Assembly (NCBI GenBank): GCA_002937455.1
Contig: PTJZ01000010.1
Location: 1-64,000, forward strand
Length of the DNA: 64,000 bases
From: Alphaproteobacteria bacterium MarineAlpha11_Bin1
Lineage (GTDB): Bacteria > Pseudomonadota > Alphaproteobacteria > MPNO01 > UBA830
Direction of reading: 5' to 3'
Below the pieces are notes generated by a model. It had not been told where the DNA came from and did no database searches. It saw nothing but the letters and a program-made list of their open reading frames with translations. The position numbers were made by a program, and so were the translations under genes. Within the stretch, counting starts at the first letter, position 1; every line of letters starts with the position of its first letter. Below are positions 15,817 through 46,537 of the stretch, piece by piece.

Positions 15817-18144
15817 ATGAAGAATTGGCTTGGCGACTCACCCCGGCGAAAAGAAGACTGGAGACTTCTTACGGGCAGGGGGCAGTTCGCGGACGACAAT
15901 TCGTCTGATGGACAACTTTATGCCTTTATGCTTGCGTCCGTCCATGCACATGCCGAGCTATATGAAATCGATACTCTCGCAGCGAGGGCCGCGCCGGGAA
16001 TTGTAGAGATTCTGACCGGTGCTGATTGGCTCGCCGACGACCTGGGACCAATCCCTCATAATATGGGCTTTTCCAGCCCTCCTGATATTGTTCTTGAAAA
16101 TCGAGATGGGACGGACCGGTTCGTTGCCCCGCACTACCCGCTGCCAGCAGACCGAGTTCGTCATGTCGGGGAACCGGTCGCGATGGTGATCGCAGAAAGT
16201 TATTCTGAGGCGCGTGATGCTGCTGAACTGATCAAAGTCAATTATATGCCGCTTACGCCAATCATAGAAACCGACACTGCCGCTTCGGATACAGCGCCTA
16301 CGATATGGCCGGACCATGGTACCAATGTCGGCATTGATGCCGACGTGAACGACCGTTCTGAAACGACTCGGCTGCTTGAAAACGCCGAGCACGTTGTGAA
16401 ATTGAAGACTAAGCTGACCCGTGTCTCAGGTGTTGCAATGGAACCCCGATCGTCGCTGGGTGAATACGACGCTGACGGGCGATATACGCTTCAGACAACG
16501 GCTGGCAGCATATACCGATATAAGCGTGAGCTCGCTGAACTGTTGGGCTCGGAGGAAAAGGACGTCAGGATTATCATCCGCGATGCTGGTGGTTCCTATG
16601 GCCCACGAAATGCCTTGTATGTGGAGCATGCTCTTGTTCTATGGGCCGCGAAACGGCTGAAGCGACCTGTCAAGTGGACCTCCGACCGGACCGAGTCAAT
16701 GCTGACAGACTATCAGGCGCGTGACCTCGTGATCGATGCGACCATCGGGTTTGACAAAGACGGAAAAATCGTCGCGCTCGATACATATAACACGTCAAAT
16801 ATCGGTGCTCATTCCGCTTCCTGGATTCCATTAGTCAAGGGAATCGAGATAAGTACCGTACTCTACCGCGTGCCGTCTGCATCCGCACGCGCCGTTGCGG
16901 TGCAGACCAATACGCCACCGACTTATCCTTATCGCAGCGCTGGGCGGCCCGAGGTGATGTACGCGATGGAACGGATGATTGATATGGCGGCCGAAGTCAT
17001 TGGGCTAGATCGTATTGAGATCCGACGCATAAACTTGATCGCACCGGAGGATATTCCCTATACCAATAATTTTGGGCTGACCTATGACTCTGGTGACTAC
17101 CCTCAGGCTCTTGATGAAGCTGTTTTTTTGTCTGGTTGGCACGATTTCCAGGATCGTAGGGTAAATTCTGTTAAGCGTGGCAGGCTCCGTGGCATCGGCA
17201 TAGCTAATTATGCGGATCTGTCGACCGGTTATCCTCGCGAATGGACGGAGATTACCGTGCAACCCGAGGGAATAGTAGAGGTCCAGATTGGCACTATGCC
17301 GACCGGGCAGGGCCATCAGACCGCGTTCAGCCAGATGGTCGCCGAGGTATTGCAAGCGCCATACGAGACCATAGAGGTCGGCTATGGCGATACTGACCTA
17401 CTCAAAGACGGTGGCGGGACGCATTCCGGACGCAGTATGCGTATGGGAGCGATTGTACTTTCAGATGCTAGCGCGAAGTTAATATCTCGAGCTACTCGGA
17501 TCGCTGCCTATGCGTTTGAAGCAGCGGATACTGATATTGAATATTCTGACGCGATGTTCACTGTCATAGGCACGGATCGTAGGATCAGCTTGTTTGACAT
17601 AGCATTAATGGCACGTGATCGTTCTGACATACCCGAAGAACTGAAAGGTGACCTGAAGGAAGATGCCAGTATACATTTCCCACGTGCTGTGATCGGTTCG
17701 GGCTGCCATGTCTGCGAGGTTGAGATAGACCCGGAAACCGGATTAGTGGATATTCTCAATTGGACCGCAGTCGACGATGTTGGTCGCGCGATCAATCCGA
17801 TGACACTGGATGGGCAGACACACGGGAGCGTTATGCAGGGTGTCGGCCAGGCGTTGATGGAAGATTGCGCTTACGACATCGAAACCGGTCAGATGATCGG
17901 TGCGACATTTGCAGATTATGCTATGCCTAGAGCAGACACTTCGCCACCGTTTCAAACTAAGCTACTAGAAATCCCAAGTCCATCGAACCCGCTGGGAATT
18001 AAGCCGGGCAGCGAAGGTGGTACGGCGGTGGCACCGGCGGCGGTCGCAAATGCGATCGTCGATGCACTAAAGGAATATGGTGTCGACCATATCGAATTGC
18101 CTGCGACCCCGGAGCGGGTGTGGCGGGCAATAAATAGATGTTGA
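15817..18144 (+). CDS. Xanthine-dehydrogenase-family molybdopterin-binding subunit (copy 3)
   Basis: Third molybdenum-hydroxylase large subunit, 775 residues. The N-terminal GDSPRRKEDWRLLTGRGQF segment, the TGQGHQT loop and YRSAGRPE are typical. The catalytic Glu (about 733) lies in GSEGGT rather than GxGExG. The usual GGGFGxK motif is altered to GGSYGPR at about 258-264, a change in the cofactor-binding loop. A purine-rich GGGGGAGGG lies directly before the ATG, with tight spacing. The gene stands alone after the TRAP operon and converges on an enoyl-CoA hydratase gene six bases away. No small subunits are adjacent. Could be an active hydroxylase with different specificity or one with modified cofactor handling. 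Confidence 0.9.
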   Translation: MKNWLGDSPRRKEDWRLLTGRGQFADDNSSDGQLYAFMLASVHAHAELYEIDTLAARAAPGIVEILTGADWLADDLGPIPHNMGFSSPPDIVLENRDGTDRFVAPHYPLPADRVRHVGEPVAMVIAESYSEARDAAELIKVNYMPLTPIIETDTAASDTAPTIWPDHGTNVGIDADVNDRSETTRLLENAEHVVKLKTKLTRVSGVAMEPRSSLGEYDADGRYTLQTTAGSIYRYKRELAELLGSEEKDVRIIIRDAGGSYGPRNALYVEHALVLWAAKRLKRPVKWTSDRTESMLTDYQARDLVIDATIGFDKDGKIVALDTYNTSNIGAHSASWIPLVKGIEISTVLYRVPSASARAVAVQTNTPPTYPYRSAGRPEVMYAMERMIDMAAEVIGLDRIEIRRINLIAPEDIPYTNNFGLTYDSGDYPQALDEAVFLSGWHDFQDRRVNSVKRGRLRGIGIANYADLSTGYPREWTEITVQPEGIVEVQIGTMPTGQGHQTAFSQMVAEVLQAPYETIEVGYGDTDLLKDGGGTHSGRSMRMGAIVLSDASAKLISRATRIAAYAFEAADTDIEYSDAMFTVIGTDRRISLFDIALMARDRSDIPEELKGDLKEDASIHFPRAVIGSGCHVCEVEIDPETGLVDILNWTAVDDVGRAINPMTLDGQTHGSVMQGVGQALMEDCAYDIETGQMIGATFADYAMPRADTSPPFQTKLLEIPSPSNPLGIKPGSEGGTAVAPAAVANAIVDALKEYGVDHIELPATPERVWRAINRC

Positions 18145-26474: not shown

Positions 26475-28061
26475 ATGGAAAAATTAATTGACGCAAAGAC
26501 CCTAAAATCGTGGATTAATGACGCCGAAGAGATAGCGCTACTTGACGTTCGTGAGGCGGGTCAGTTTGGTGCAGATCACATGCTGCACTCTATCCCGTGT
26601 CCCTACAGTATTCTCGAAACGCGTGTACCGATCTTGGCACCCCGCCGTTCGGTGAGAGTTGCGCTGGTCGATGCAGATGATGGAACCGCTCAAAAAGCAG
26701 CGCGGCGATTGGCGGGAATCGGCTACAAAAATATATCGATTCTCCGTGGTGGAAACGCAGCGTGGGCGGCGGCAGGTTTTGAGGTCTTCCAGGGAGTTAA
26801 TGTCCCGTCAAAGGCATTTGGTGAGGTAGTTGAGTATGTTACAAAAACCCCCAATATTCCGGCTGAAGAGCTTAAGGAGATGATGGAGGCGGGCGAAAAT
26901 ATGGTGATCGTCGACGGTCGAACGCCGATGGAACATCATAATATGTCAATCCCGGGTGGCGTAAGCATGCCCAATGCCGAAATGATCTATCGAATTCATG
27001 ATTTAGCTCCAGACCCCGACACTACTATCGTCGTGAACTGTGCAGGACGCACCCGATCGATAATCGGCGCTCAGGCCCTGATAAACGCGGGTCTTCCAAA
27101 CCGTATCGTAGCGCTTAAGGCTGGTACTATGGGATGGGGACTGGCAGGGTTTCAACTTGATCACGGTTCTTCACTCAGTTATGCGGGAAAACCCAGTTTA
27201 GACGGTGCCCGTAAAGCGGCAGCATATGCCGACTATATTATTGAGAGGTTCCACATTTCGACGGTTAACAGAGAAACATTGTCGGAATGGAAAGGCGATG
27301 AGACCCGCACCTTGTTCCTGCTAGATATACGGGCCGAGGGAGAATATATCGACGGACACCTTCCGGGTTCGGTGAATGCCCCGGGTGGGCAATTAGTTCA
27401 GGCGACAGACCAGTGGTGCGGGGTTTGGAAGGCCCGAGTCGTTCTGATTGATACGGCTCCTTGCTCCCGTGCTGCAATTACGGCCCACTGGCTGAAACAG
27501 ATGGGCTGGGATGTTTATATCCTTGAGAGTGGACTTGACAGTTCTGAGGCTACTGAACAAGGGACTATACCTCAAATCGATAGAGGTATGATGGACCTGA
27601 ATACCCTGACACCTCTTGAGCTTTCAAATGCTATCACCTCGGGTTCAGCCTTTGTGGTCGACGTTGATAATTCGATGGATTATCGGGAGGGCCATCTACC
27701 TGGCGCGGTGTGGTGTACCCGGTCGCGGATCGAGCGCCTTAAGGTGCCGGATGGAGTAACGGTCGTGCTCTATTCCGAGCATGAAACGCGCGCCAGACTA
27801 GCGGCGATCGATCTGTCGGAGGAGGTCGGCGGACCTATTGCTATTTTGGAAGGCGGCCGCGACGCCTGGAATGCAGGGAGTTTTCCGATTGAGGCATCGC
27901 CAGAAATACCTATGGATGCGGACTGTATAGATTATCTTTTTTGGGTTTCGCGTCGCCATATGGGTAGCGATGAAGCGGCGCTTGCCTATCTAGAATGGGA
28001 AGAAAACTTGCCAGCCCAAATCGAAGCGGACGGGGATGCGAGATTCTCTGTGATGACATGA
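26475..28061 (+). CDS. Four-domain rhodanese-like protein
   Basis: 528-residue protein that appears to contain four tandem rhodanese (sulphurtransferase) domains at roughly 5-105, 125-230, 260-355 and 378-475. Only the second has a standard active-site cysteine (C189 in VVNCAGRTRS); the first loop reads ALVDADDG, the fourth VLYSEHETR, and the third has a shifted cysteine (C330, DTAPCSR). A single active site with three structural or regulatory repeats is therefore likely. It would move sulphane sulphur to cyanide, a thiol or a cofactor. GGGAAG precedes the ATG. It is followed 21 bases on by an LLM flavin oxidoreductase; a link to sulphur-containing or molybdenum-cofactor chemistry in the cluster is only inference. 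Confidence 0.85.
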   Translation: MEKLIDAKTLKSWINDAEEIALLDVREAGQFGADHMLHSIPCPYSILETRVPILAPRRSVRVALVDADDGTAQKAARRLAGIGYKNISILRGGNAAWAAAGFEVFQGVNVPSKAFGEVVEYVTKTPNIPAEELKEMMEAGENMVIVDGRTPMEHHNMSIPGGVSMPNAEMIYRIHDLAPDPDTTIVVNCAGRTRSIIGAQALINAGLPNRIVALKAGTMGWGLAGFQLDHGSSLSYAGKPSLDGARKAAAYADYIIERFHISTVNRETLSEWKGDETRTLFLLDIRAEGEYIDGHLPGSVNAPGGQLVQATDQWCGVWKARVVLIDTAPCSRAAITAHWLKQMGWDVYILESGLDSSEATEQGTIPQIDRGMMDLNTLTPLELSNAITSGSAFVVDVDNSMDYREGHLPGAVWCTRSRIERLKVPDGVTVVLYSEHETRARLAAIDLSEEVGGPIAILEGGRDAWNAGSFPIEASPEIPMDADCIDYLFWVSRRHMGSDEAALAYLEWEENLPAQIEADGDARFSVMT

Positions 28062-33891: not shown

Positions 33892-34767
33892 TTACATCAC
33901 ACCGTAGCGGAGAGTAATCCATAATTTCCGCGCTTTGGAAAGGCTAGCGTCATCATCGAGATTCTGCCATCGCCCGGCGATCAGGCGATCTAAAATTCGC
34001 CGGTAGCTCATCATCATCACAACCGCTGGTTTAAGTGCTTGGGCGTTCGACCGGGCCAGCATTTTTTCGGCCTCCGAGTATTTTTCCTGCGCACGGCGTG
34101 CTAATGAGTCACACAGTTCAGGTAGATTTGGATGAGATAAAATGTCGTTAGGCCTAACGATCGATACACCATGAAGGTCTAACTGTTCGCGGGGAAGATA
34201 AAGCCGTCCCATAAGTGCATCATCTTTTACGTCACGTAAGATATTTGTGAGTTGCAAAGCTGTTCCCAAAGTAATCGCGAAGGACCTTGCGGGATTGCCA
34301 TAATCACCAAAAATTTTGATAGACAACAATCCAACAGCACCGGCGACACGCTCACAGTAGAGTTGTAACAGTGCACAGCTCGGCATTAGCATGGAGCCAT
34401 CCGTATCCATTTCCATGCCCGCAATGATCTCAAAAAAATCATCCTTTTCGAGATTGTAAATCGAGATCGCCTGTGCGAGGGCTCGCAAAAGATGACTTTT
34501 CGGCGCCGCAGAAATTGGGGTATATAAAGCGTCAATATTCTGTCGCCACTGATCCAGTCGGGCACGTTTTTCGGCAATCGTCATATCGCTATCTGCAATG
34601 TCATCGACCTCTCGACAAAATGCGTAAACCGCGAATATAGCGTCTCTTTTCGGTTCCGGAAGAAGCCGCATCCCCCAGTAAAACGAGGAGCCCGCGGCAC
34701 GAGTAACCTCCCGCACGTAAAGCCGCGCGGTGAGACTTGGATCGTTGGCTGTTCCCCGATTAGCCAT
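33892..34767 (-). CDS. hpnD: Presqualene diphosphate synthase-like (squalene/phytoene synthase family)
   Basis: 291-residue head-to-head prenyl synthase. The SSFYWGMRLLP opening, the first aspartate-rich motif CREVDDIAD (D55-D59), and the second motif NILRDVKDDALMGRLYLPRE match HpnD, which makes presqualene diphosphate from two farnesyl diphosphates in bacterial squalene and hopanoid synthesis. The partners hpnC and hpnE are not in the window, so this gene is isolated within a catabolic region. A phytoene-type activity cannot be excluded. Confidence 0.85.
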   Translation of the reverse strand: MANRGTANDPSLTARLYVREVTRAAGSSFYWGMRLLPEPKRDAIFAVYAFCREVDDIADSDMTIAEKRARLDQWRQNIDALYTPISAAPKSHLLRALAQAISIYNLEKDDFFEIIAGMEMDTDGSMLMPSCALLQLYCERVAGAVGLLSIKIFGDYGNPARSFAITLGTALQLTNILRDVKDDALMGRLYLPREQLDLHGVSIVRPNDILSHPNLPELCDSLARRAQEKYSEAEKMLARSNAQALKPAVVMMMSYRRILDRLIAGRWQNLDDDASLSKARKLWITLRYGVM

Positions 34768-35276: not shown

Positions 35277-36332
35277 ATGAACGACATAGAAATTTCCGCT
35301 AAAGACATTGAGAGGCGCGTTGCGCTTGGCCCGCTTAATCGCTGGTGGCCTGTAGCGGCAAGCTGGATGGTGACTGACGATCCGCAGGGTTTGACCCGCC
35401 TTGGAGAAAGGATTGTTCTCTGGCGCGACAGGGACGGCACGATTCACTGTGTCGAGGATCGGTGCCCGCATCGCGGCGCACGACTTTCCATGGGCTGGAA
35501 TCTCGGAGACCGCCTTGCATGCTGGTATCACGGAGTAGAGGTAGGGGGCGATGGCGTCGTAAAGTCGGTTCCGGCCATTTCGGAATGCCCAATGGTCGGA
35601 GACAAGATGGTAAAGGCTTACCCATGCTTTGAAAAAATGGGGGGGATATTTGTTTGGTTCGGTGACGAGTTGCACGAGGAGGCGGAAGCGTTCGAACTTC
35701 CCGAGGAGTTCGTGTCTGATGAATGGGCGGCGATGCTTTGTACAGCGCATTGGAAATGTAACTGGACGTATGCATTTGATAATGTAATGGATCCCATGCA
35801 TGGGGCGTATCTACATGCCATTTCACACTCGATGGCGGAAGGAGATACTACAGCCAAGATGCAGCTAGACAAGACGGACACAGGTTTCATCTTCGGGAAA
35901 TCGGGCCAGCGTGACATTAACTTTGATTGGATAGAATTTGGAGATACCGGCGCATTCTGGCTGCGGGTTTCTCCACTGCCATACCGTAAGGAGGCTGGAC
36001 CCGGCGGAAATTTCAGCATTATGGGTTTCGTTACGCCGATTGATGAAGATAACTGTCGTGTTTTTTTCTGGCGGACTCGGAAGGTGTCGGGTTGGCAGCG
36101 TGACGTCTGGAAGTTCATGTACCGTAACCGGCTTGAAACCCTCCACTGGGATGTACTGGAACAGGATCGCGTCGTCCTTGAGGGTATGGCTTCCGACGCA
36201 AGGGATAAGGAATTTCTTTATCAGCATGATACTGGTCTGGCGCGTGCACGCCGTGTCCTGTCCAAGGAGGCGGAAGCTCAGCTGATATCAGTTGCAGCCC
36301 ACGTCGGCGGAGCTATGGAGGCGGCTGAGTAG
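35277..36332 (+). CDS. VanA-type Rieske oxygenase
   Basis: 351-residue single-component-type oxygenase of the vanillate O-demethylase / phthalate dioxygenase group. The Rieske cluster is bound by C63-x-H65 and C82-xx-H85 (CPHRG, CWYHG). The mononuclear iron motif reads N169..D172-xx-H175-xxxx-H180. The opening NRWWPVAAS is typical of this group. It would O- or N-demethylate, or hydroxylate, an aromatic acid. The cognate reductase (VanB type) is not found in the window. It heads an operon with SDR, cupin and hydrolase genes. Confidence 0.92.
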   Translation: MNDIEISAKDIERRVALGPLNRWWPVAASWMVTDDPQGLTRLGERIVLWRDRDGTIHCVEDRCPHRGARLSMGWNLGDRLACWYHGVEVGGDGVVKSVPAISECPMVGDKMVKAYPCFEKMGGIFVWFGDELHEEAEAFELPEEFVSDEWAAMLCTAHWKCNWTYAFDNVMDPMHGAYLHAISHSMAEGDTTAKMQLDKTDTGFIFGKSGQRDINFDWIEFGDTGAFWLRVSPLPYRKEAGPGGNFSIMGFVTPIDEDNCRVFFWRTRKVSGWQRDVWKFMYRNRLETLHWDVLEQDRVVLEGMASDARDKEFLYQHDTGLARARRVLSKEAEAQLISVAAHVGGAMEAAE

Positions 36333-36363: not shown

Positions 36364-37122
36364 ATGGGATCGATATCGCTTACGAATAAACGTGTTGTTG
36401 TCACAGGCGGAGCTCGAGGGCTTGGCCGAGCTTTCGCGGAAGCGGCAATCGTCGCCGGCGCAAGGGTCATAGTGGCCGACATTCTCGAGGACGTTGGGAG
36501 GGCAACTGTTGGAGCATTGTCAACGAATGGCGAAGCGTATTTCGAACCGGTCGACCTTTCCGATCCCGATAGTATCATTGCACTTGCGGATCATGCCTCT
36601 GATCTTCTTGGTGGCGTCGATGGATTGGTCAATTGTGCTGCGATCGCCACTGGAATCGGTGGGAAAGTGGCTGAAGAGATTGATATCGAGACCTGGGATC
36701 GGGTGATGACGGTCAATGTGCGTGGTACCTGGCTTGCTATAACGGCGTTTTCTACTTTGCTACGGGCTGCCGGTAACGGAAAAATAGTAAATATTGCCTC
36801 TGATACCGCGATGTGGGGCGCTCCAAGATTGCTCCACTACGTCGCGTCAAAGGGTGCCGTTATTTCTATGACTCGGTCTCTGGCCCGCGAACTCGGGAAT
36901 GATGGGATTGCTGTAAACGCTATTGCGCCGGGTCTTACTTTAGTGGAAGCGACGGAATACGTGCCAGAAGAGAGGCGCCGTCGATACATCGATGGCCGAG
37001 CGATGAACCGTGAACAACAGCCAGATGACGTCACGGGAGCGGTGATGTACCTCTTGTCAGACGCGGCGGATTTCGTGACCGGTCAATTATTACCGGTCAA
37101 TGGCGGGTTCGTTTTCAATTAG
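36364..37122 (+). CDS. SDR oxidoreductase
   Basis: 252-residue short-chain dehydrogenase with all standard motifs: TGGARGLGRAF (nucleotide loop), NCAA, IASDTAMWG, and Y-VAS-K (catalytic pair), ending in LLPVNGGFVFN. The chosen ATG at 36364 follows GCAGGAC; the open frame begins upstream inside the Rieske gene but that part is not coding. It sits 31 bases after the oxygenase and 15 before the cupin, so it may oxidise a cis-diol or alcohol produced by the oxygenase. Confidence 0.9.
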   Translation: MGSISLTNKRVVVTGGARGLGRAFAEAAIVAGARVIVADILEDVGRATVGALSTNGEAYFEPVDLSDPDSIIALADHASDLLGGVDGLVNCAAIATGIGGKVAEEIDIETWDRVMTVNVRGTWLAITAFSTLLRAAGNGKIVNIASDTAMWGAPRLLHYVASKGAVISMTRSLARELGNDGIAVNAIAPGLTLVEATEYVPEERRRRYIDGRAMNREQQPDDVTGAVMYLLSDAADFVTGQLLPVNGGFVFN

Positions 37123-37137
37123 TCCGAGGAGAGACTT

Positions 37138-37704
37138 ATGGATGGAGATGCAGTGATAAAAAAGGGCGCCGATGGTCGTAATGAAGATAAGCCCGGCTGG
37201 CATCAGGAAGACGGACAGTCCTTCCAAGACTGGATGGACACTCGCGTGGCCCGATACCGGACACGTCAATATGATTGGGATGTTCTTAAATTTCAGGCTG
37301 ATTTTGATCCTAAATATCGGCGAGCACAGATGCGTTATATGGGTACTGGCGGGGCTGGTAAAAGTTCTGACAATAACACTGTTCCTTCTGAGCATTTTAC
37401 GTTCTCGACGATGGTGTTGCCTCCCGGCTGCGAAGGCCCGCAGCATATTCATACCGACGTAGAGGAGGTATTTTTCATGCTGCGTGGCAGTATTCACCTA
37501 ACTGTCATAGAAGGTGACAACACGTGGGAAACAGTTCTCATGGAGCGGGACCTGATATCGGTGCCGCCGGGCGTTTATCGCGGGCTTGTGAACGATGGTC
37601 AGGAGGAGGCGTTGATGTGTGTTATGCTTGGAGCAACGAAACCGGTAACGCCGACCTATCCTCCAGATCACCCACTCGCTTCAATTAAGCGGAATAAGAA
37701 ATAG
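37138..37704 (+). CDS. Cupin-domain protein
   Basis: 188-residue single-cupin protein. The metal-binding motif is seen as H103-x-H105 with E109 or E110 (PQHIHTDVEE), followed by VFFMLRG and the second-half DLISVPPGVYRGLVND. GAGGAGAG precedes the start. Cupins of this size act as ring-cleavage dioxygenases, isomerases or sensors; position between an SDR and a hydrolase in an oxygenase operon suggests a catabolic role. The N-terminal 70 residues are not recognised. Confidence 0.82.
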   Translation: MDGDAVIKKGADGRNEDKPGWHQEDGQSFQDWMDTRVARYRTRQYDWDVLKFQADFDPKYRRAQMRYMGTGGAGKSSDNNTVPSEHFTFSTMVLPPGCEGPQHIHTDVEEVFFMLRGSIHLTVIEGDNTWETVLMERDLISVPPGVYRGLVNDGQEEALMCVMLGATKPVTPTYPPDHPLASIKRNKK

Positions 37705-37767: not shown

Positions 37768-38574
37768 ATGAAAGCTGTACAAAGAACGGTCGAGACACAC
37801 TGCGGGATAGTCTCTTACCTAGAAGCTGGTGAGGGTACTGCCCTCGTCCTATTGCATGGTATCGGTTCTGGTGCGGCATCCTGGACATCCCAACTCGAGG
37901 TATTTTCGGAATGCTATCGTGTGGTCGCGTGGAATGCGCCCGGCTATGGTACCTCTGATCCGGTCGGATCAGAGGTACCAACTTCTGCAGAATATGCAAT
38001 GCATCTCAAAGCTCTGCTAGATGCGCTTGAGATTCCCGATTGCCATTTGGTCGGACATTCTCTGGGTGCGATTATAGCCACCGGATTTGCCGGGATGTGT
38101 ATTGACAGGTTGAAAAGTCTGATGCTCGCATCGCCAGCATCAGGATACGGTTCCGCAGGCGCGGAGATTCAGGAACAGAGACGAACAGGACGAATGTCGA
38201 TGATGAGAGATCTTGGTCCGGAAGGGTTAGCCCGCGAGCGCCATGGAAATCTTTTGTCAGAAAACGCTCCGCAATGGGCGCGGGACCGTGTCCGTGGAGT
38301 GATGGAGCAACTTAACCCTGATGGATATCGACAAGCGGTTGAACTCTTGGTCAACAGCGATATTAATGCGGATGCCTATGGATTTCCTATGCCTGTCACC
38401 GTGGTGGTTGGGGAATCAGACTCCGTCACGTCGCCCAAGGACTGTAAATTTATCGCCAAGATTTTTGCAGAGCACTACTTTGAGATTCTTCCCGGGCTTG
38501 GCCATGCCAGTTACGTCGAAGGGCCCGATTTGTTCAATCTTGCACTTGATAATCATCTAGAGAGGAACAGATGA
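37768..38574 (+). CDS. Alpha/beta hydrolase
   Basis: 268-residue alpha/beta-hydrolase with S98 as nucleophile in LVGHSLGAI, a likely acid in VGESDSVTSP and the histidine in GLGHASYVEGP. The HGIGSGAASWTSQ segment supplies the oxyanion hole. It resembles ring-fission-product hydrolases and enol-lactonases. Its coding sequence contains a 32-base near-perfect palindrome (37948-37979). Its stop codon overlaps the start of a 59-codon ORF (ATGA). Confidence 0.86.
   Translation: MKAVQRTVETHCGIVSYLEAGEGTALVLLHGIGSGAASWTSQLEVFSECYRVVAWNAPGYGTSDPVGSEVPTSAEYAMHLKALLDALEIPDCHLVGHSLGAIIATGFAGMCIDRLKSLMLASPASGYGSAGAEIQEQRRTGRMSMMRDLGPEGLARERHGNLLSENAPQWARDRVRGVMEQLNPDGYRQAVELLVNSDINADAYGFPMPVTVVVGESDSVTSPKDCKFIAKIFAEHYFEILPGLGHASYVEGPDLFNLALDNHLERNR
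37948..37979. repeat. Perfect 15-base inverted repeat inside the hydrolase gene
   Basis: GGTACCTCTGATCCG and CGGATCAGAGGTACC are fully complementary, with only GT between them. The sequence encodes YGTSDPVGSEVPT in the hydrolase. A cruciform or very stable mRNA hairpin is possible. Chance alone makes a 30-base match in coding DNA unlikely. Confidence 0.9.
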
Positions 38575-38750
38575 GAGGGCGTGCAGCAAATAGACTTGTA
38601 TCTTTGGTGCCGGTGCTCCAACGACGGTTGTTTTTTCGCCAGAACGATCCTTCCAACAAATCTCTGCGAGAGTATTCGCAAAACAATGTTCGGAGTATTG
38701 TTAATGCATATGGTGCGCCACCTAAATATGAGGGATGCAAAACGAAATGA
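38571..38750 (+). CDS. Small coupled protein of unknown function (59 aa)
   Basis: A 59-residue ORF whose ATG overlaps the hydrolase stop (ATGA at 38571) and whose TGA overlaps the next SDR start (ATGA at 38747). Both junctions are the classic translational-coupling form and the ORF fills the whole gap between two real genes. The product is basic at the N-terminus (MRGRAANRLVSLVPVLQRR), then has NDPSNKSLREYSQNNV and ends AYGAPPKYEGCKTK. It has no signal peptide or membrane helix. I do not recognise it. It is below usual 60-residue cut-offs, so it is easily missed. Confidence 0.68.
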   Translation: MRGRAANRLVSLVPVLQRRLFFRQNDPSNKSLREYSQNNVRSIVNAYGAPPKYEGCKTK

Positions 38751-39562
38751 CTGCAAATATGGGTAATAAAGTTGTGGTTATTACCGGTGGATCCTCGGGA
38801 ATCGGTATGGCAGCAGCTGCAGCATTTCTTCGTGAGGGAGCGAAGGTTGCGATTTGCGGTCGCGATCAAGGTCGGCTGAATTCTGCTGCGGAAAGCCTAA
38901 CCGAAATATCAGGGTCTCACAGTGTTTACGCACATCCCTGTGATGTACTGGACGAAGAAGCCGTTGCCGGTCTCTCTAGTGCCGTTAAAAACTGTTTCGG
39001 TCGCTGCGACGCGCTCATATGTAATGCCGGCCAAGCACGGACAAGCAATTTTTATACGACCAGAGATAAGGATTGGCTTGATGAATTTGAGCTAAAGTTT
39101 TTTTCTGTGTTGAGGCCTGTTAGAGCATTCATTGATCTTCTGGAAGCCTCGGGTGCCGGCTCAATAGTGTGCACTAGTGCGATGCTTGCGCGAACGCCAG
39201 AGCCGTTCCTAATCGCGACAGGCGCTACCAGGGCCGGTCAACTCAACTTACTAAAATCTCTCTCACGCGAATTTGCGCCGAGAAATGTACGGGTTAATGC
39301 GGTTCTGATTGGTCTTGTCGACTCTGGGCAATGGAGCAGCCGATATGAAAGAGGTGAAGGACCAGACGGGACAAAAATTCCGGACGGGATGTCAAAGGAA
39401 GACTGGTTTAAAGAACTAGCAAATTCCCGCCATATTCCGATGGGCCGAATTGGCACGCCTTCAGAAGCCGCAAACGCGATCCTTTTCTTTGCATCTCCAA
39501 TGGCATCCTATATCACCGGGGAGACGATCGAGGTCACAGGGGGGCAGGCAAGGAATGTCTGA
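38747..39562 (+). CDS. Atypical SDR without the Tyr-Lys pair
   Basis: 271-residue SDR-fold protein. The nucleotide loop TGGSSGIGMAAA and the CNAG motif are normal, but where YxxxK is expected the sequence reads T-GAT-R (ATGATRAGQLNLLKSL), so both the catalytic tyrosine and lysine are replaced. Such proteins form a known divergent SDR group. I choose the ATG at 38747, which overlaps the stop of the 59-aa ORF; an ATG at 38735 is possible but has its GAGGG too close. Its end overlaps the start of the ThDP enzyme by eight bases. Confidence 0.84.
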   Translation: MTANMGNKVVVITGGSSGIGMAAAAAFLREGAKVAICGRDQGRLNSAAESLTEISGSHSVYAHPCDVLDEEAVAGLSSAVKNCFGRCDALICNAGQARTSNFYTTRDKDWLDEFELKFFSVLRPVRAFIDLLEASGAGSIVCTSAMLARTPEPFLIATGATRAGQLNLLKSLSREFAPRNVRVNAVLIGLVDSGQWSSRYERGEGPDGTKIPDGMSKEDWFKELANSRHIPMGRIGTPSEAANAILFFASPMASYITGETIEVTGGQARNV

Positions 39563-41216
39563 TCGGGTAACCGCCGGCGAAATTGCCGCAATTTTTCTTG
39601 AAAGTTGCGATGTCAAACATGCCTTCGGTGTGATTAGCATCCACAATATGCCTATCCTTGATGCGATCGCGCGCCGCAATAATATCAATTTCGTTGCGGC
39701 TCGGTCCGAGGGTGGTTCAGTCAACATGGCAGATGCCAATGCCCGGGTGCGTGGCGGTCTTGGGGTAGCAATTTCTAGCACAGGAACAGCGGCTGGAAAC
39801 GCTTGTGGTGCTATCGTTGAGGCTTTGTCGGCGGGGACGCCGCTACTCCATTTGACCGGACAGATCGAGAGCGAGCACTTAGATAGGAATAAGGGTTTTA
39901 TTCACGAAGCACCTGATCAGGCGAGGATGCTGAGTGCGGCAGGGAAAGGTGCTTTCCGGGTTTGGTCAGCCGACACCATGGTCGGCACCCTAAAGGAAGC
40001 CGTTCGTCTAGCATTTACTCCGCCTATGGGTCCAGTCAGTGTTGAAATACCAATAGACGTACAAAAAGATTTGACAACAATTCCTGCAAGCATAGAGACG
40101 TTAGAGGTGCCAAGATCTGCACCAAACACGGCATCGGTTGACGCACTCGCCGAAGCGCTCGCCCAGAAGAAACGGGTCATGTTGTGGCTAGGCGGTGGCG
40201 CGCGCCATGCAAGTGATCCGGTAGCGCGACTCGCCAAGATAGGTTTTGGGATAGTTACAAGCGTTCAAGGTCGCGGCGTGCTGCCAGGCGACGATCATCA
40301 GTCATTAGGCGCATTCAACTTGCAGCCAGCCTCGGAGGAGTTCTACCAAACTTGTGATGCGATGCTTGTTGTGGGTTCTAGGCTACGGTCCAACGAGACA
40401 CTGACCTATAAGTTACAGCTGCCAGAGCCACTTTATCAGATTGACGCTGATCCGCTGGCAGGAGGTCGAGCCTATCCAGTGGAAATGTTTGTTTGTGGGG
40501 ATTCCAAGCGTACCCTTGAAATGTTAGCTGATCGACTAAAAAATAGGTTTGTCCCGGATAAGTCCTTCACTAAGGATATCCTTGTGGCCCAACAGCGTGC
40601 CGAGAGGGAAGTGCGCGATGCATTGGGCCCCTATGATGGCATAGTTGACGCAGTGATTGATGCAGTCCCGAGAGACTTTGTCTGGGTTCGAGATATAACT
40701 CTGTCGAACACTATTTGGGGGAACCGGTTACCACTACTTGATGGACCGCGTGACGGAGTACATGCTCTCGGCGGTGGGATTGGACAGGGATTACCGATGG
40801 GAATCGGCGCAGCGCTAGGTGTGCAGGAGGAAGGGCGCAAGACACTGGTTCTAATAGGTGATGGCGGGTTTGCAGTTACCCTTGGTGAGTTCGCAACGGC
40901 CAAACAGGAAAATGCTGATATCGTGATCATTTTGATGAATGACGGTGGATACGGGGTGATCAAGAATATAGCCGATGCGCATTTCGGTGGACGCCGCGCC
41001 TACGTGGATATCCTTGGACCCGACTGGGGAAAGCTCTGTGGGTCGTTAGATATCCCCTATTGGCGAGTGGGAGAGGCGGAGGATTTCCCCGAACTCCTTA
41101 AAGGCGCCATTACAAAGAATGGTCCTTCATTGATCGAAATAGACATGGCCTCGATTGGTCAATTCGCGCACGCCTTCGCCGGGCCACCGTCAAAAACGAA
41201 GTCTGATAGCACATGA
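39555..41216 (+). CDS. Thiamine-diphosphate-dependent enzyme (acetolactate synthase/benzoylformate decarboxylase family)
   Basis: 553-residue ThDP enzyme. The N-terminal pyrimidine domain has HAFGVISIHNMPILDA and RSEGGSVNMADA (the conserved Glu that activates ThDP), the middle domain lies around 180-340, and the C-terminal domain has GDGGFAVTLGEF near 436 with NDGGYG, the Mg/diphosphate-binding motif. Relatives decarboxylate 2-oxo acids or carboligate. GGCAAGGA precedes the ATG at 39555, within the end of the SDR. Its stop overlaps the next gene by four bases. A 2-oxo acid from aromatic breakdown is a plausible substrate. Confidence 0.88.
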   Translation: MSDRVTAGEIAAIFLESCDVKHAFGVISIHNMPILDAIARRNNINFVAARSEGGSVNMADANARVRGGLGVAISSTGTAAGNACGAIVEALSAGTPLLHLTGQIESEHLDRNKGFIHEAPDQARMLSAAGKGAFRVWSADTMVGTLKEAVRLAFTPPMGPVSVEIPIDVQKDLTTIPASIETLEVPRSAPNTASVDALAEALAQKKRVMLWLGGGARHASDPVARLAKIGFGIVTSVQGRGVLPGDDHQSLGAFNLQPASEEFYQTCDAMLVVGSRLRSNETLTYKLQLPEPLYQIDADPLAGGRAYPVEMFVCGDSKRTLEMLADRLKNRFVPDKSFTKDILVAQQRAEREVRDALGPYDGIVDAVIDAVPRDFVWVRDITLSNTIWGNRLPLLDGPRDGVHALGGGIGQGLPMGIGAALGVQEEGRKTLVLIGDGGFAVTLGEFATAKQENADIVIILMNDGGYGVIKNIADAHFGGRRAYVDILGPDWGKLCGSLDIPYWRVGEAEDFPELLKGAITKNGPSLIEIDMASIGQFAHAFAGPPSKTKSDST

Positions 41217-42019
41217 TGGATGTCCTGCTAATCGGGTATGGTGCAATAGCGCAAGAGGTTCTGAAGCGGATCCAGCCTGGTGAGGCGGCCAATATCAACT
41301 CGATACTTGTTAGAGCCAACCGTGTTTCTGAGGTTCGCGATACTGTCTCGTCACGCGGGATAGAAGTCGTTTCTTCGTTAAGCGAACTTTCTGCCAAACC
41401 AGACTTGATAGCGGAGTGCGCTGGGCATTCAGGGGTACGGGAATATGGCGTCGAAGCGTTACGTAGTGGGACTGATTTTCTAGTGATCTCTATTGGAGCC
41501 CTCGCAGACACTGAACTTTTTGCAGCTCTCACCTTGGCGGCCAAAGAAGCTGGTTCAAAATTGATTCTAGCTGCCGGTGCCGTCGCTGGCGCGGATGCGC
41601 TGGCCGCCGCCCGCGTAGGTGGTTTGAACCGGGTAAAATATACGTCGCGAAAGCCGCCCAAGGCCTGGAAGGGCACGCCGGCGGAGGATGTCGCAAACCT
41701 TGATGAACTGACGGAGGAAATAACGCTATACCAAGGCAGTGCAGCAGAAGCCGCAAAGCGGTACCCACAGAATGCAAATGTAGCAGCAACTATAGCCCTG
41801 GCAGGGGTAGGTTTTGCCAAGACTGAGGTGCGTTTAGTTGCCGATCCTACCAGAGATGGTAACCTTCATCAGGTGCGCGCAGAAGGAGCATTCGGTTCCG
41901 TAGATATTGAAATTCTCGGTAATCCGCTGCCCGATAATCCGAAGACATCGACGCTCGCGGCCCATTCTGTGATCGCGGAAATCCGGCGCCGAGCAGAACC
42001 AGTCGAAATTGGCGGATAG
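41213..42019 (+). CDS. Aspartate dehydrogenase-like protein
   Basis: 268-residue NAD(P)-binding protein of the aspartate dehydrogenase (NadX) family. The Rossmann motif IGYGAIAQ is at 7-14; ECAGHSGVREYGVEAL and LAAGAVAGADALAAARVGGL match the family, as does KPPKAWKGTPAE and NANVAATIALAG. It would interconvert L-aspartate (or a similar amino acid) and the 2-oxo/imino acid. Translational overlap (ATGA) with the ThDP enzyme gene links it to catabolism here instead of NAD synthesis; nadA and nadC are absent. The true substrate may be another amino or imino acid. Confidence 0.86.
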   Translation: MMDVLLIGYGAIAQEVLKRIQPGEAANINSILVRANRVSEVRDTVSSRGIEVVSSLSELSAKPDLIAECAGHSGVREYGVEALRSGTDFLVISIGALADTELFAALTLAAKEAGSKLILAAGAVAGADALAAARVGGLNRVKYTSRKPPKAWKGTPAEDVANLDELTEEITLYQGSAAEAAKRYPQNANVAATIALAGVGFAKTEVRLVADPTRDGNLHQVRAEGAFGSVDIEILGNPLPDNPKTSTLAAHSVIAEIRRRAEPVEIGG

Positions 42020-42195: not shown

Positions 42196-42822
42196 ATGAC
42201 TTCTAGTAACCGCAGCGGTGAAACTCCTGAACAATTAAACGGAATTGGCGCACTGCCCGTTCCGGATCCGGAAACGCTGGATATTGATCTTCAGAAATAT
42301 ATGGAAATCTGTGAACAAAAACTTGGTCACATCCCTAATGTTGTAAAAGTTTTTTCATTGCGTCCTGCGAAATTGAGAACCTTCATTGCTAAATACAATG
42401 AGATGATGCTCTCCGATGAAAGTGGATTAAGCCGACTAGAAAGAGAAATGATTGCTGTTGTTGTTTCATGCGTAAACCGATGCGTTTACTGCGTCACATC
42501 TCACAGTCAGGCTGTGCGAGAGTTCTCCGGCGACCCGGTGCTAGGCGATATATTGATGGTCAACTATCGTGAGGCCAATTTGACGCCACGCCAGCGTGCA
42601 ATCCTTGACCACGCTTGGAAGATGACTTCAGTTCCGGGTGAGACTGGCGAAGCGGACAGGCAAACCTTGGCTGACGCCGGATTGAGCCCTGAAGAGATTT
42701 TTGATCTTACCGACGTCATCGCCTACTTTAACTACACCAATAGAATGGCACACGGTCTCGGTATGCAGCCAAATGAATATTACTTCGGACGTAACCGATT
42801 GCCCGATCCAGAGTCAGAATAG
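42196..42822 (+). CDS. AhpD-like / carboxymuconolactone-decarboxylase-family peroxidase-related protein
   Basis: 208-residue all-helical protein with the peroxidase-related AhpD motif C96-VY-C99-x3-H103 inside MIAVVVSCVNRCVYCVTSH (in part), as in the uncharacterised peroxidase-related (YciW/YnjA-type) branch. The CxxC pair would reduce peroxides or organic hydroperoxides. It could protect iron-dependent oxygenases in this cluster. It begins a new unit that continues with a GroEL paralogue. Confidence 0.85.
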   Translation: MTSSNRSGETPEQLNGIGALPVPDPETLDIDLQKYMEICEQKLGHIPNVVKVFSLRPAKLRTFIAKYNEMMLSDESGLSRLEREMIAVVVSCVNRCVYCVTSHSQAVREFSGDPVLGDILMVNYREANLTPRQRAILDHAWKMTSVPGETGEADRQTLADAGLSPEEIFDLTDVIAYFNYTNRMAHGLGMQPNEYYFGRNRLPDPESE

Positions 42823-42989: not shown

Positions 42990-44666
42990 ATGGCAACCGT
43001 CGCTATAAAGTTCGGGTTAGAGGCACAGCGCGAGATGCTTCGAGGAATCAATCTGCTTACCCGAACGGTGGCAGCAACGTTGGGTCCCAAGGGGAGAAAC
43101 GTTCTGATCGAATCGGAGGGTGGTATTGGACCTCCCCGCATTACCAAGGACGGCGTGACCGTATCCGATTCTCTTCAAGTCGATGGACAATATGATCAAA
43201 TAGGGCTTCGTCTGATCCGGCGGGCTGGCCAGCGTGTAGGCGAAGAGTTTGGGGACGGTACCACGACAACAATTGTATTGGCAGGAGTATTGGCTTCCGA
43301 GGGCCTTAAGGCTGTAACGGCAGGGTATGACCCTATGGAGCTAAGGCTGGCCTTAAATGATGGAGTAAATACGATTATCGACGAACTGCGACAACTGGCA
43401 CAACCTGTTGGAGGACGTAGTGACTTGGAGCGTATTGCGACGGTTTCGGCTAACGGTGACGGTAATCTTGGTAGTATCATTGCTGCGGCCTTTGATAGTG
43501 TAGGCGTTGATGGGGTGGTTACCGTCGAGGGTGGTGAAGGCTTCTATACAACTTGGGAAAAATTGAATGGACTTCAATGGGAAGGAGGATACGTCTCCCC
43601 TTATTTTATGACTGACACAACAACTACCGAGTGTCGATATGAGAAACCACTGATTCTGCTTACCGAGCATACACTAGAGCAGCACACTCAACTGTTAAAA
43701 CTGCTTGAGGTATCGGTCAGGGAGAACCGCCCGTTGCTGATAGTGGCAGAGGCAGTGAAAGGAGAGGCCCTTCAGACACTGACCGTCAATAAAATAAAAA
43801 ACAACCTTCGGGTGGTGGCCGGTAAGGGACCCTTTTTCGGCGATCGTCGTAGAGAAACTATGGAAGACTTAGCGCTTTTGACGGGTGCTACGCTTGTATC
43901 CGAGAGCCGGGGTACTAACAAATCAACTATAGACCCTGGGGTTCTGGGTACTGCTGACCGGGTCATTTTAAATAAGGATACTACTACGATCATAGGTGCC
44001 GCAGGAGATTCAAGAGATGTTGCACGCCGCGCTAATAGCGTCAGGGCTGAGCAGGGGGCGAAGCGGAATACCCCGTTTCAGGAAAAGATACTCCGCGAAC
44101 GTCTTGCTAGACTCACTGGCGGGGTGGTGGTGGTGCGGATCGGAGGCGCCAGCGAGATAGAAATTAAAGAGCGTCGAGAACGCGCCGATGATGCCGTGAG
44201 CGCGGTCCGCGCCGCTCCACTTGAGGGTATTTTACCAGGCGGAGGCGCGGGGTATATCCACGCGACTCGCCGGCTAACAAATGATGATACAGAATTAGGA
44301 AGCGTTGCTGTAGGTATTTTGCGTCGAGTTCTAGCATCGCCCGCGGAGCGCATCGCTTTTAACGCCGGTTATGATGGCAGAATGATTTCTGCGAAGCTGG
44401 CGGGATTTATGGATCCGTGCCAAGGTTTTGATGCTCAGGAGGGAGAATTTCGCGACCTATTCAAGGCCGGTATCGTTGATCCAGCGAGGATCGCGATCGC
44501 GGCGTTAGAAGCAGCGAATTCAGTAGCTTCCCTTTTCCTTACAGCGGCGGCCGTGATTAGCAAGCCGCTCCCGGAGCGGCCGACAAGTTCGGGTAATATT
44601 CCTTTTGGTCCGGAGGCTAAAGATATGACTTCAGAAGAGGCAGGTCACTTCGGACTTCTGTCATGA
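42990..44666 (+). CDS. groEL: Divergent GroEL-family chaperonin (no GroES partner)
   Basis: 558-residue group I chaperonin. ATP-binding and hydrolysis sites are kept: TLGPKGRNV at 30-38, GDGTTT at 88-93, the ADDAVSAVRAA segment with the catalytic Asp, LPGGGAGYI and KAGIVDPARI. The apical domain and several contacts differ strongly from housekeeping GroEL, and the C-terminal GGM-repeat tail is absent (ends in EEAGHFGLLS). There is no groES next to it and no CIRCE element upstream, so it is not the cell's main chaperonin. It lies inside the catabolic region between an AhpD-like gene and a DMT carrier. Dedicated chaperonins of this kind are known to fold certain monooxygenases (for example the propane-monooxygenase-linked MimG), and such a role fits. 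Confidence 0.88.
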   Translation: MATVAIKFGLEAQREMLRGINLLTRTVAATLGPKGRNVLIESEGGIGPPRITKDGVTVSDSLQVDGQYDQIGLRLIRRAGQRVGEEFGDGTTTTIVLAGVLASEGLKAVTAGYDPMELRLALNDGVNTIIDELRQLAQPVGGRSDLERIATVSANGDGNLGSIIAAAFDSVGVDGVVTVEGGEGFYTTWEKLNGLQWEGGYVSPYFMTDTTTTECRYEKPLILLTEHTLEQHTQLLKLLEVSVRENRPLLIVAEAVKGEALQTLTVNKIKNNLRVVAGKGPFFGDRRRETMEDLALLTGATLVSESRGTNKSTIDPGVLGTADRVILNKDTTTIIGAAGDSRDVARRANSVRAEQGAKRNTPFQEKILRERLARLTGGVVVVRIGGASEIEIKERRERADDAVSAVRAAPLEGILPGGGAGYIHATRRLTNDDTELGSVAVGILRRVLASPAERIAFNAGYDGRMISAKLAGFMDPCQGFDAQEGEFRDLFKAGIVDPARIAIAALEAANSVASLFLTAAAVISKPLPERPTSSGNIPFGPEAKDMTSEEAGHFGLLS

Positions 44667-44832: not shown

Positions 44833-45726
44833 TTGCCGGCCCATTTTATTCTTTCACTCTATAGTACTTGGCTTCGTCTGCCGCCCAACTTACGAGGCAT
44901 TCTCTGGCTTAGCATTGGCACATTTATGTTCGCCATTGTGGACGTGTTTGTTAAATCACTGGGTGGTCGGTTTGATCCCCTGCAAATTTCCTTTTTTCGT
45001 TATAGCTGCGGTCTGATTTTTTTAATGCCGTTATTTATTAGGCTTGGTGCGTCGAATCTGAGGACTGGTCGCCTACCTCTTCATCTGATGCGAATGTGTC
45101 TCGCTTTTGCAGCCCAGTTAGGAATTTTTATCACTGTTATCCATATGCCATTGGCCGAGGCGACGGCATTAATGTTCTCCAAACCATTGTTTACGACACT
45201 AATCGCGGTGATCCTTCTGCACGAGGTGGTCGGGCGGCGGCGCTGGGTAGCGACGATCTTAGGCTTCATGGGGGTCTTGGTCTTGGTCCGCCCGGGAGCG
45301 GAGGCGTTTGATCCCATTGCCTTGGTCGCGGTTACATCAGCATTAACGTTTGCTGTTGCAAACGTTCTTATTCGCAAGATGTCAACGACCGAGCCAACAG
45401 GCCGCATTTTATTTTACTATCATATTGGAGGCGTGACCGTATTTGCCCTTCCTACCTGGTGGGTTTGGAATTTACCAGATTTAATTGACTGGCTAAAGTT
45501 GATCGGTATTGGAGGTCTCACGACGCTTGGTATATTTTGCTTTATGCGGGCGTTCGCGGTTGGTGAGGCTAATGCTGTGGGACCGGTTGAAAACGTTAGG
45601 CTGATTTATGCTGTTTTGTTTGGTTATTTACTCTTCGCGGAAATTCCTTCTATCTGGACTGCGGTAGGTGCTCTTATAATCGTGGGTAGTACCTACTACA
45701 TCGCGCGGGGAGAGGCGCGAGAGTGA
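44833..45726 (+). CDS. EamA/DMT-family transporter
   Basis: 297-residue inner-membrane protein with about ten hydrophobic helices and two EamA repeats. The MPLAEATALMFSKPLFTTL and ENVRLIYAVLFGYLLFAEIP segments are typical of S-adenosylmethionine/metabolite carriers of this family. The start is uncertain; a TTG with AAAAGG about nine bases before it is the only in-frame choice near the expected N-terminus. Substrate unknown. Confidence 0.83.
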   Translation: MPAHFILSLYSTWLRLPPNLRGILWLSIGTFMFAIVDVFVKSLGGRFDPLQISFFRYSCGLIFLMPLFIRLGASNLRTGRLPLHLMRMCLAFAAQLGIFITVIHMPLAEATALMFSKPLFTTLIAVILLHEVVGRRRWVATILGFMGVLVLVRPGAEAFDPIALVAVTSALTFAVANVLIRKMSTTEPTGRILFYYHIGGVTVFALPTWWVWNLPDLIDWLKLIGIGGLTTLGIFCFMRAFAVGEANAVGPVENVRLIYAVLFGYLLFAEIPSIWTAVGALIIVGSTYYIARGEARE

Positions 45727-45781
45727 TATTGATAGAACTTCAAACTGTCGATACCGTTCGAATTCAATAAAAGGAAGCAAT

Positions 45782-46537
45782 ATGACAGAAACAGCTATAT
45801 TCGAACCCGGCGGTTATAGGTATGTCCGGGGACCGTTCCAGTATTCCGGTGGGGTTGTTGCAGAGGTTGGATTTGCGCTAGAGCGGGTTCGGTTTCAGAC
45901 GCCATTACCTCTGGAGGAAGGATTTGCACGAATCGAAAGCCACCTGGACCGGATTGGACGGCCATACACCTCTTTTGCTGCCTGCGAGTTACGTTCGCCG
46001 GAACCGTTTTCCGAGCAAGGCTTCATTGATTTTAACCGGGTCTATGTCGGCACGTTGGAACGTTGGGGGCTGTTTAAAGATGAGGAAAACCCGGTTGCGC
46101 GTTCGAATGTCTGTCCTGAAATCGATGCTCCACCTGAGCCCAGTTTCCATGCCTTCAGTTATACAGTCCCAGCCGCGGCTGATCAGTCACGGAGTTTCGT
46201 GATCGCCGGGTCTGCAGAATCACCCGAGGGCGGCGCGACTTACGAGGAACGAATTATTCGATTAGGGGAGACGTCCGAAGATGCGCTACTTGAAAAAGCG
46301 CAATATGTAATACAAGCGATGGAAAAACGTATGTCGGCGCTGGACGTTGGTTGGGAAGATGCCACAGTGACCCATGCTTACACGGTTCATGACCTTCACC
46401 CTTTTCTTGGTGACGAACTCGTATCCCGCGGTGCGGCCGACGCCGGCTTAACTTGGGTCTATGCTAGGCCGCCGGTAATTGGTCTAGAATATGAGATGGA
46501 CGTCCGCGGCGTGCATACCGAGTATGTCATGGTCTGA
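45782..46537 (+). CDS. 2-amino(-5-chloro)muconate deaminase-like (CnbZ-type) protein
   Basis: 251-residue soluble protein. GGYRYVRGPFQYSGGV, FAACELRSPEPFSEQGF, ARSNVCPEI and GLTWVYARPPVIGLEYEMDVRG recall the CnbZ family, which deaminates 2-amino-5-chloromuconate in chloronitrobenzene degradation; the fold belongs near the RidA group. The match is from memory, so confidence is moderate. It ends the catabolic region, 296 bases before recA. If correct, it implies a pathway through an amino-substituted ring-cleavage product. Confidence 0.66.
   Translation: MTETAIFEPGGYRYVRGPFQYSGGVVAEVGFALERVRFQTPLPLEEGFARIESHLDRIGRPYTSFAACELRSPEPFSEQGFIDFNRVYVGTLERWGLFKDEENPVARSNVCPEIDAPPEPSFHAFSYTVPAAADQSRSFVIAGSAESPEGGATYEERIIRLGETSEDALLEKAQYVIQAMEKRMSALDVGWEDATVTHAYTVHDLHPFLGDELVSRGAADAGLTWVYARPPVIGLEYEMDVRGVHTEYVMV

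Follow-up and report, generated by a model that had tools for sequence, protein, structure and literature searches.

The GroEL paralogue P0001, encoded in a 64,000-nucleotide stretch of contig PTJZ01000010.1 from Alphaproteobacteria bacterium MarineAlpha11_Bin1 (the window), is placed by sequence comparison neither with the housekeeping GroELs nor with MimG-like chaperonins, but in a two-branch clade marked by a conserved C-terminal peptide. We call its members tail-GroELs. Operon-borne GroEL paralogues are already known; what is new here is the clade with its peptide, and our literature search, a text search that takes no sequence motif, found no description of either. The replacement of the GGM tail by a near-invariant peptide makes a narrow partner set probable, and P0001 probably serves such a set. 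The explanation that we prefer, to which we give about an even chance as a whole, is that P0001, a group I chaperonin resident in an operon, has become specialised: it would contact a narrow set of clients with its tail and assist the neighbouring catabolic enzymes.

Identity and fold of the window GroEL

The open reading frame of P0001 runs exactly from 42990 to 44666 on the forward strand, ATG to stop, and encodes 558 residues (Table 1). Judged by profile and fold over the full length, P0001 is a Cpn60 group I chaperonin. It matches Cpn60_TCP1 (PF00118) in Pfam with 204.6 bits against a cut-off of 34.3 over residues 23–524. Its score for the NCBIfam GroEL equivalog TIGR02348 is 523 bits, below the cut-off of 582.1, whereas the housekeeping GroEL of a relative (L044), taken as a control, reaches 874.2 bits. 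The AlphaFold2 monomer model has a mean pLDDT of 84.7, and a Foldseek search with this model leads to GroEL/Hsp60, with TMq values up to 0.86 among the 50 matches listed. As to a phage or plasmid origin of P0001, viral contigs gave no match, and phages and plasmids gave only matches below 60% identity.

Table 1. Features of the GroEL locus, with positions in the window.
Feature	Position	Strand	Basis
Rieske (VanA_C-type) oxygenase, first gene of linked operon	35277..36332	+	Pfam, recurrence
SDR oxidoreductase 1	36364..37122	+	Pfam, recurrence
Cupin_2 protein	37138..37704	+	Pfam, recurrence
Alpha/beta hydrolase	37768..38574	+	Pfam, recurrence
SDR oxidoreductase 2 (PRK07062)	38735..39562	+	Profile, recurrence
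Thiamine pyrophosphate enzyme (PRK07064)	39549..41216	+	Profile, recurrence
L-Aspartate dehydrogenase family protein (PRK13303)	41213..42019	+	Profile, recurrence
AhpD/CMD-like peroxidase-related protein (TIGR01926)	42196..42822	+	Profile, recurrence
15-nt leader element TTGCGTTAAACCGGG / TTGCGNTANACCNGC, directly before GroEL start codon	42972..42986	+	Conservation across loci
GroEL paralogue P0001, group I chaperonin, 558 aa, tail-GroEL branch I	42990..44666	+	Profiles, trees
Codon Asp54 (E. coli D52), catalytic	43149..43151	+	Alignment
Codon Asp89 (E. coli D87), catalytic	43254..43256	+	Alignment
Codon His232 (E. coli I230), apical groove; His in 130/130 clade members aligned	43683..43685	+	Alignment
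Codon Asp401 (E. coli D398), catalytic; lost elsewhere in tail-GroEL clade	44190..44192	+	Alignment, tree
Conserved C-terminal tail IPFGPEAKDMTSEEAGHFGLLS, residues 537–558, replaces GGM repeats	44598..44663	+	Alignments, codon comparison; low pLDDT in monomer model
EamA transporter	44833..45726	+	Pfam, recurrence
CnbZ-like 2-amino-5-chloromuconate deaminase	45782..46537	+	Profile/recurrence

We compared P0001 with the housekeeping alphaproteobacterial GroEL represented by TIGR02348. Both share the Cpn60 fold, the length, the ATP-site motifs and the core apical hydrophobic residues; P0001 differs in its fixed tail, in the substitutions I230H, R197G and R452 to Glu, and in that no groES, CIRCE element or GGM tail was found. 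First, the equivalents of D52, D87 and D398 are all Asp in P0001, and the ATPase residues are thus kept, as the original prediction held. Second, the apical domain, which had been described as diverged, is as close to the housekeeping proteins as the rest of the molecule: the mean identity to 32 housekeeping GroELs (every fourth of 127) is 42.5% (apical), 40.5% (equatorial) and 46.0% (intermediate), and the core apical residues Tyr199, Tyr203, Phe204, Leu234, Leu237 and Leu259 (E. coli numbering) are unchanged, with Ile230 replaced by His. Finally, the alignment shows R197G in most of branch I and the loss of the inter-ring Arg452 (Glu in P0001), which suggests a weakened double ring in this branch.

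The absence of groES that had been predicted was confirmed: eight GroES proteins of relatives, used as queries, gave no window match below E 0.31 and no match at E 1e-3 in 10 related loci. A second groEL was not found in the window either (E up to 1). The question whether P0001 is the only GroEL was followed in the genomes of five relatives carrying a branch I gene. Three of these have a separate housekeeping groESL; the other two, both MAGs, show neither groES nor a second groEL, and their assemblies are probably incomplete. For a heptameric, GroES-dependent working of P0001, no linked groES was found, and one or two groES genes lie elsewhere in three of the five genomes.

A clade apart from housekeeping GroEL

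A search with P0001 (about 5.8 billion proteins; 7999 candidates scored) returned about 105 relatives among the 120 listed, mostly with 53–72% identity. These form branch I, beyond which the identity falls to about 44%. Branch II is a second group of about 29 proteins, with a mean identity of 47.9% to branch I. Housekeeping GroELs show a mean identity of 44–45% to either branch and about 40–44% to P0001. In a 52-row tree, branches I and II join with a support of 100/99, apart from 25 housekeeping GroELs, which are weakly supported as one group (88/62), and from two monooxygenase-linked GroELs, L127 and L140. The separation of the two branches from housekeeping GroEL has a support of 100 when the tails are cut off and the two monooxygenase-linked rows are left out. 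For the 52-row tree the program flagged long branches and uneven composition, so the exact placement of the clade is less sure than its separateness.

The original prediction was of a cluster-embedded paralogue, to be checked by phylogeny; P0001 does not cluster with housekeeping GroEL in these trees, and the operon linkage recurs in three other genomes (G005, G007 and G006). Fragments were dropped before the counts given below (P0088, P0099, P0100, P0103, P0110 and P0111 in branch I; P0140, P0147 and P0149 in branch II), as were P0104 and P0112, which are other GroELs. No branch I protein was found in 384 other genomes of the class, with at most three candidates scored per genome.

MimG, PrmG and MmoG are the names of the chaperonins of soluble di-iron monooxygenase operons. 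Like P0001, they come from a lone groEL in a catabolic operon and have a non-GGM tail, and the shared arrangement, in which a lone groEL ends an oxygenase operon, would fit an orthologue of these proteins, the type to which P0001 had been likened. However, P0001 is only 33–34% identical to L127 and L140, which served as proxies from other Alphaproteobacteria in place of MimG itself and were the only two such GroELs found in 20 stretches around PF02332 genes. P0001 also lies outside their branch, its tail differs, its operon enzymes are others, and a Pfam scan of 30 window ORFs gave no match to PF02332 (di-iron monooxygenase). The 52-row tree contradicts orthology, which we consider very improbable, and membership of the MimG type was rejected. 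PMC6849523 cites a mycobacterial monooxygenase that requires a GroEL-like protein when placed in a foreign host, and the soluble di-iron monooxygenase operons are described in PMC4428276.

The L127 and L140 GroELs (L127:10729–12363 and L140:13245–14882), which are encoded beside di-iron monooxygenase genes, share a tail of their own, DPTAG...GAEK. Fixed tails may thus be general in operon-dedicated chaperonins.

The C-terminal tail

The GGM tail is absent from P0001, as had been noted from the sequence; the conserved peptide that replaces it had been missed. The branch I tail reads PFGPEAKDMTx(D/E)EAxx(F/Y)GL, and all 16 diverse members aligned share PFGPEAKDMT unchanged. The branch II tail is related to it (consensus FGPTxPDFxADELxGxGLA), and P0001 carries the C-terminal mark of the clade, FGP-x3-D ... 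GL. Of the sequences counted, 103 of 104 in branch I and 26 of 26 in branch II carry the tail, as against none of 127 housekeeping ones; P0084, which is without the tail end, was entered as the miss. Conservation after residue 525 falls in housekeeping GroEL (57.5% against 76.7% in the body), whereas it rises in branch I (86.9% against 73.6%).

At the DNA level, the amino-acid identity of the tail among six branch I genes is 0.89, compared with 0.58–0.73 in the other segments, and the synonymous codon change is 0.62, compared with 0.59–0.65. Since the synonymous codons vary as much as elsewhere while the peptide is conserved, conservation of the DNA itself or a recent spread is ruled out, and the tail peptide is under purifying selection. 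The tail has a pLDDT below 50 in the AlphaFold2 monomer model and is predicted to be disordered, as expected of a flexible contact peptide. A search of the PDB gave two chance-level matches only (best E 0.072). We also searched with the tail alone in 12 of the 27 genomes of the order, which include only G004 and G018 of the nine that have a Rieske relative without a detected tail-GroEL. Strong matches fall only on tail-GroELs, with the next best at E 0.1, and a motif shared between tail and client is ruled out for these 12 genomes.

Other bacterial paralogues have non-GGM tails that are His-rich, Gln-rich or pattern-less, as described in PMC11978752 and PMC5904260. These paralogues likewise stand beside a GGM-tailed copy; the tail of tail-GroEL, unlike theirs, is near-invariant in sequence. 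The function of the GroEL C-terminal tail is still debated, according to PMC11978752. In Myxococcus xanthus, where GroEL is duplicated as well (GroEL1/GroEL2), client preference is attributed to the apical and C-terminal equatorial regions in PMC3578752. There, the GGM tail of GroEL1 matters, whereas P0001 has a conserved peptide instead and is encoded in an enzyme operon.

Loss of catalytic aspartates

As in P0001, the Asp residues equivalent to D52, D87 and D398 are intact in 127 of 127 housekeeping and 98 of 104 branch I sequences. The remaining 6 branch I proteins and 20 of 26 in branch II have lost one or more of them (26 of 130 clade members). All 26, in which D52 or D398 is missing, still carry the tail; the divergent members P0101 and P0105–P0109 also combine a lost catalytic Asp with a retained tail. 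A 43-row tree requires four changes at D398, so this residue went missing on at least four occasions. Such losses are odd for a simple ATP-driven foldase and count against the explanation that we prefer. They are accommodated by a scaffold or holdase in which the tail, not an ATP-driven cycle, does the work: seven docking peptides would organise or hold a partner, and hydrolysis would be dispensable and decay in some lineages. The repeated loss of D398 with the tail retained, the retention of all three residues in housekeeping GroEL and the finding that a segment predicted to be disordered is the most conserved one all argue for this. P0001 and most of branch I keep the full set, however, and the losses could mark decaying genes, although the tail would then be expected to drift. 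We regard a scaffold or holdase as a real but lesser possibility.

Operon and neighbourhood

The row Rieske–SDR–cupin–hydrolase–SDR–TPP–AspDH–AhpD has the P0001 gene at its 3′ end. In G005 and G007, the row from Rieske to AspDH (with AhpD in G007) precedes GroEL on one contig, and EamA and then the CnbZ-type deaminase follow it. In G006 the same row from the Rieske operon to GroEL falls on two contigs, the break lying within the hydrolase gene. G002 keeps the order AhpD, MCP, GroEL, EamA and CnbZ, with the Rieske operon on another contig, and in G001, which consists of short contigs, an MCP gene precedes GroEL and the Rieske operon is on a different contig. The AhpD-like gene lies directly before GroEL in three of six loci and one gene away in a fourth. 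Beyond CnbZ, an aldolase II, an enolase-like, a glyoxalase and a second Rieske oxygenase gene are common to G002, G005, G006 and G007; this second Rieske gene lies 6.3–8.4 kb downstream of GroEL, and its copies are 77–82% identical to that of G002. In the window it is absent beyond CnbZ, where recA and alaS are found instead. These conclusions on neighbours come from tblastn and Pfam, as the quick ORF caller gives shadow genes in high-GC loci.

EamA and CnbZ (44833–46537 in the window) are paired in eight genomes (L177–L181, L188, L189 and L191), all with tail-GroEL. The pair is not within the fetched flank in seven genomes without tail-GroEL, and five further CnbZ genomes stand outside this count. 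In the window, a squalene/phytoene synthase gene (33892–34767) points away from the Rieske operon, and its homologue lies beside a Rieske gene in L038, L111, L114–L118, L124 and L125. At 26475–28061, the window encodes a protein with four rhodanese-domain matches.

The branch II GroEL lies between an alpha/beta hydrolase gene and a 3-hydroxyisobutyrate-dehydrogenase-like gene with DUF1330. This order is the same in four genomes and partly kept in a fifth, on a truncated contig. In L039, L040 and L042, a ring-opening dioxygenase of the LigB type is encoded about 7 kb from GroEL; next to it, L039 also shows a weak VanA_C match that stays below the cut-off. Branch II thus sits with a different gene set, so one client shared by both branches is not obvious from these operons. 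The branch II reading frame in L042 (8262–9972) is split in the MAG, by assembly error or decay.

A 15-nt leader element precedes the start codon in the window, L001, L002, L038 and L048, and in weaker form in L037. It is non-coding in the window (in-frame TAA), and within one mismatch it occurs only before the GroEL start in all loci covered by the search. The element may be an operator or a translation signal. A CIRCE-like element was found neither in the window nor in nine related loci with the upstream side present (L043, whose contig ends inside the gene, is outside the CIRCE count), compared with 26 of 28 housekeeping groEL stretches (up to 4 substitutions).

This difference bears on whether P0001 could be a general stress or back-up chaperonin that hitch-hikes beside the operon, its tail marking the family and serving a structural purpose, for instance ring closure. 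The existence of the operon without GroEL in relatives and the retention of the key apical hydrophobic residues would agree with a back-up function. The missing CIRCE-like element does not, nor do the same catabolic surroundings in four genomes and the absence of a detected groES alongside, and we consider a back-up chaperonin quite unlikely.

Oxygenases and molybdenum enzymes as possible clients

A relative of the Rieske oxygenase is present in 19 of the 27 genomes of the order, 10 with tail-GroEL and nine with none detected, where the Rieske relatives are 59–78% identical. Every one of the 10 tail-GroEL genomes carries a Rieske relative, and tail-GroEL is missing from all eight genomes that gave no Rieske match. 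This correlation is not independent evidence, because the genomes are related and kinship was left uncorrected. For G010, G018 and G025, absence means fragmentary GroEL matches or none. In G004 the two Rieske types are neighbours, without a tail-GroEL. Outside the order, five Alphaproteobacteria have a Rieske relative at 60–65% identity, and branch I was not found there. The Rieske operon thus does not need this GroEL in general.

The original prediction proposed a dedicated chaperonin for a Rieske oxygenase and named co-occurrence of the two as a check. The linkage part of this stands: the genes are linked in the window, G005, G007 and, across the contig break, G006, and the second downstream Rieske gene gives the idea some weight, as do the Rieske relatives in all 10 tail-GroEL genomes found and, in branch II, the LigB-type dioxygenases and the weak VanA_C match. 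The converse does not hold in the nine Rieske-positive genomes without a detected tail-GroEL, among them G004 with both types; the window is without the second gene; and nothing singles out Rieske proteins among the linked enzymes. A Rieske client is thus possible but not favoured over the other linked enzymes taken together, and a chaperonin dedicated to it is unlikely.

Molybdenum enzymes had been proposed as clients as well. The three molybdenum-hydroxylase large-subunit genes of the window (1353–3704, 8175–10526 and 15817–18144) lie 25–42 kb upstream of GroEL, and no homologue of them was found in the 10 tail-GroEL stretches (E 1e-10), and this client was rejected. Against the rejection, three branch II genomes, G009, G012 and G020 (loci L114, L115 and L118), do carry homologues at about 40% identity; these are found on the opposite strand roughly 1 kb beyond the Rieske operon and not near the GroEL of these genomes. 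In the window, the molybdenum-hydroxylase genes form another catabolic island together with a Rieske oxygenase gene (10554) and TRAP transporter genes.

Proposed function

In the explanation that we prefer, an old duplication of GroEL would have given rise to a specialised, operon-resident group I chaperonin. Tail-GroEL would form a GroEL-like ring, with seven tails rising from the cavity floor, where the GGM tails of GroEL sit. These tails may make sequence-specific contacts, either with a restricted group of clients or with the ring itself. The ring would hold and fold, or assemble, one or more enzymes of the neighbouring catabolic genes; ATP would be used in the window member, with housekeeping GroES or without a lid. 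Enzymes of its own catabolic island are plausible clients because of the gene linkage. The separate clade, the recurrence of the island, the selection on the tail, its restriction to GroEL in the 12 genomes searched and the operon-borne position of branch II, also beside metabolic enzymes, support this explanation, and the Myxococcus and mycobacterial cases are precedents for it. Against it stand the 9 of 19 Rieske genomes without tail-GroEL, the five Alphaproteobacteria outside the order with a Rieske relative but no branch I protein found, the different gene set around branch II, and G001 and G002, where GroEL and operon are on different contigs.

A bolder form can be offered tentatively, in which the tail is the functional core: seven docking peptides would make a sequence-specific assembly platform for catabolic enzymes, perhaps Rieske oxygenases, with hydrolysis optional and repeatedly lost. 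The ring may then be a single one, since branch I no longer has the Arg452 contact between rings.

In summary, the retention of the tail despite the loss of catalytic aspartates offers a natural separation-of-function system, in which tail contact and ATP hydrolysis could be studied separately, and client choice may prove to be tail-dependent. If confirmed, this would extend operon-dedicated chaperonins beyond the di-iron monooxygenases.
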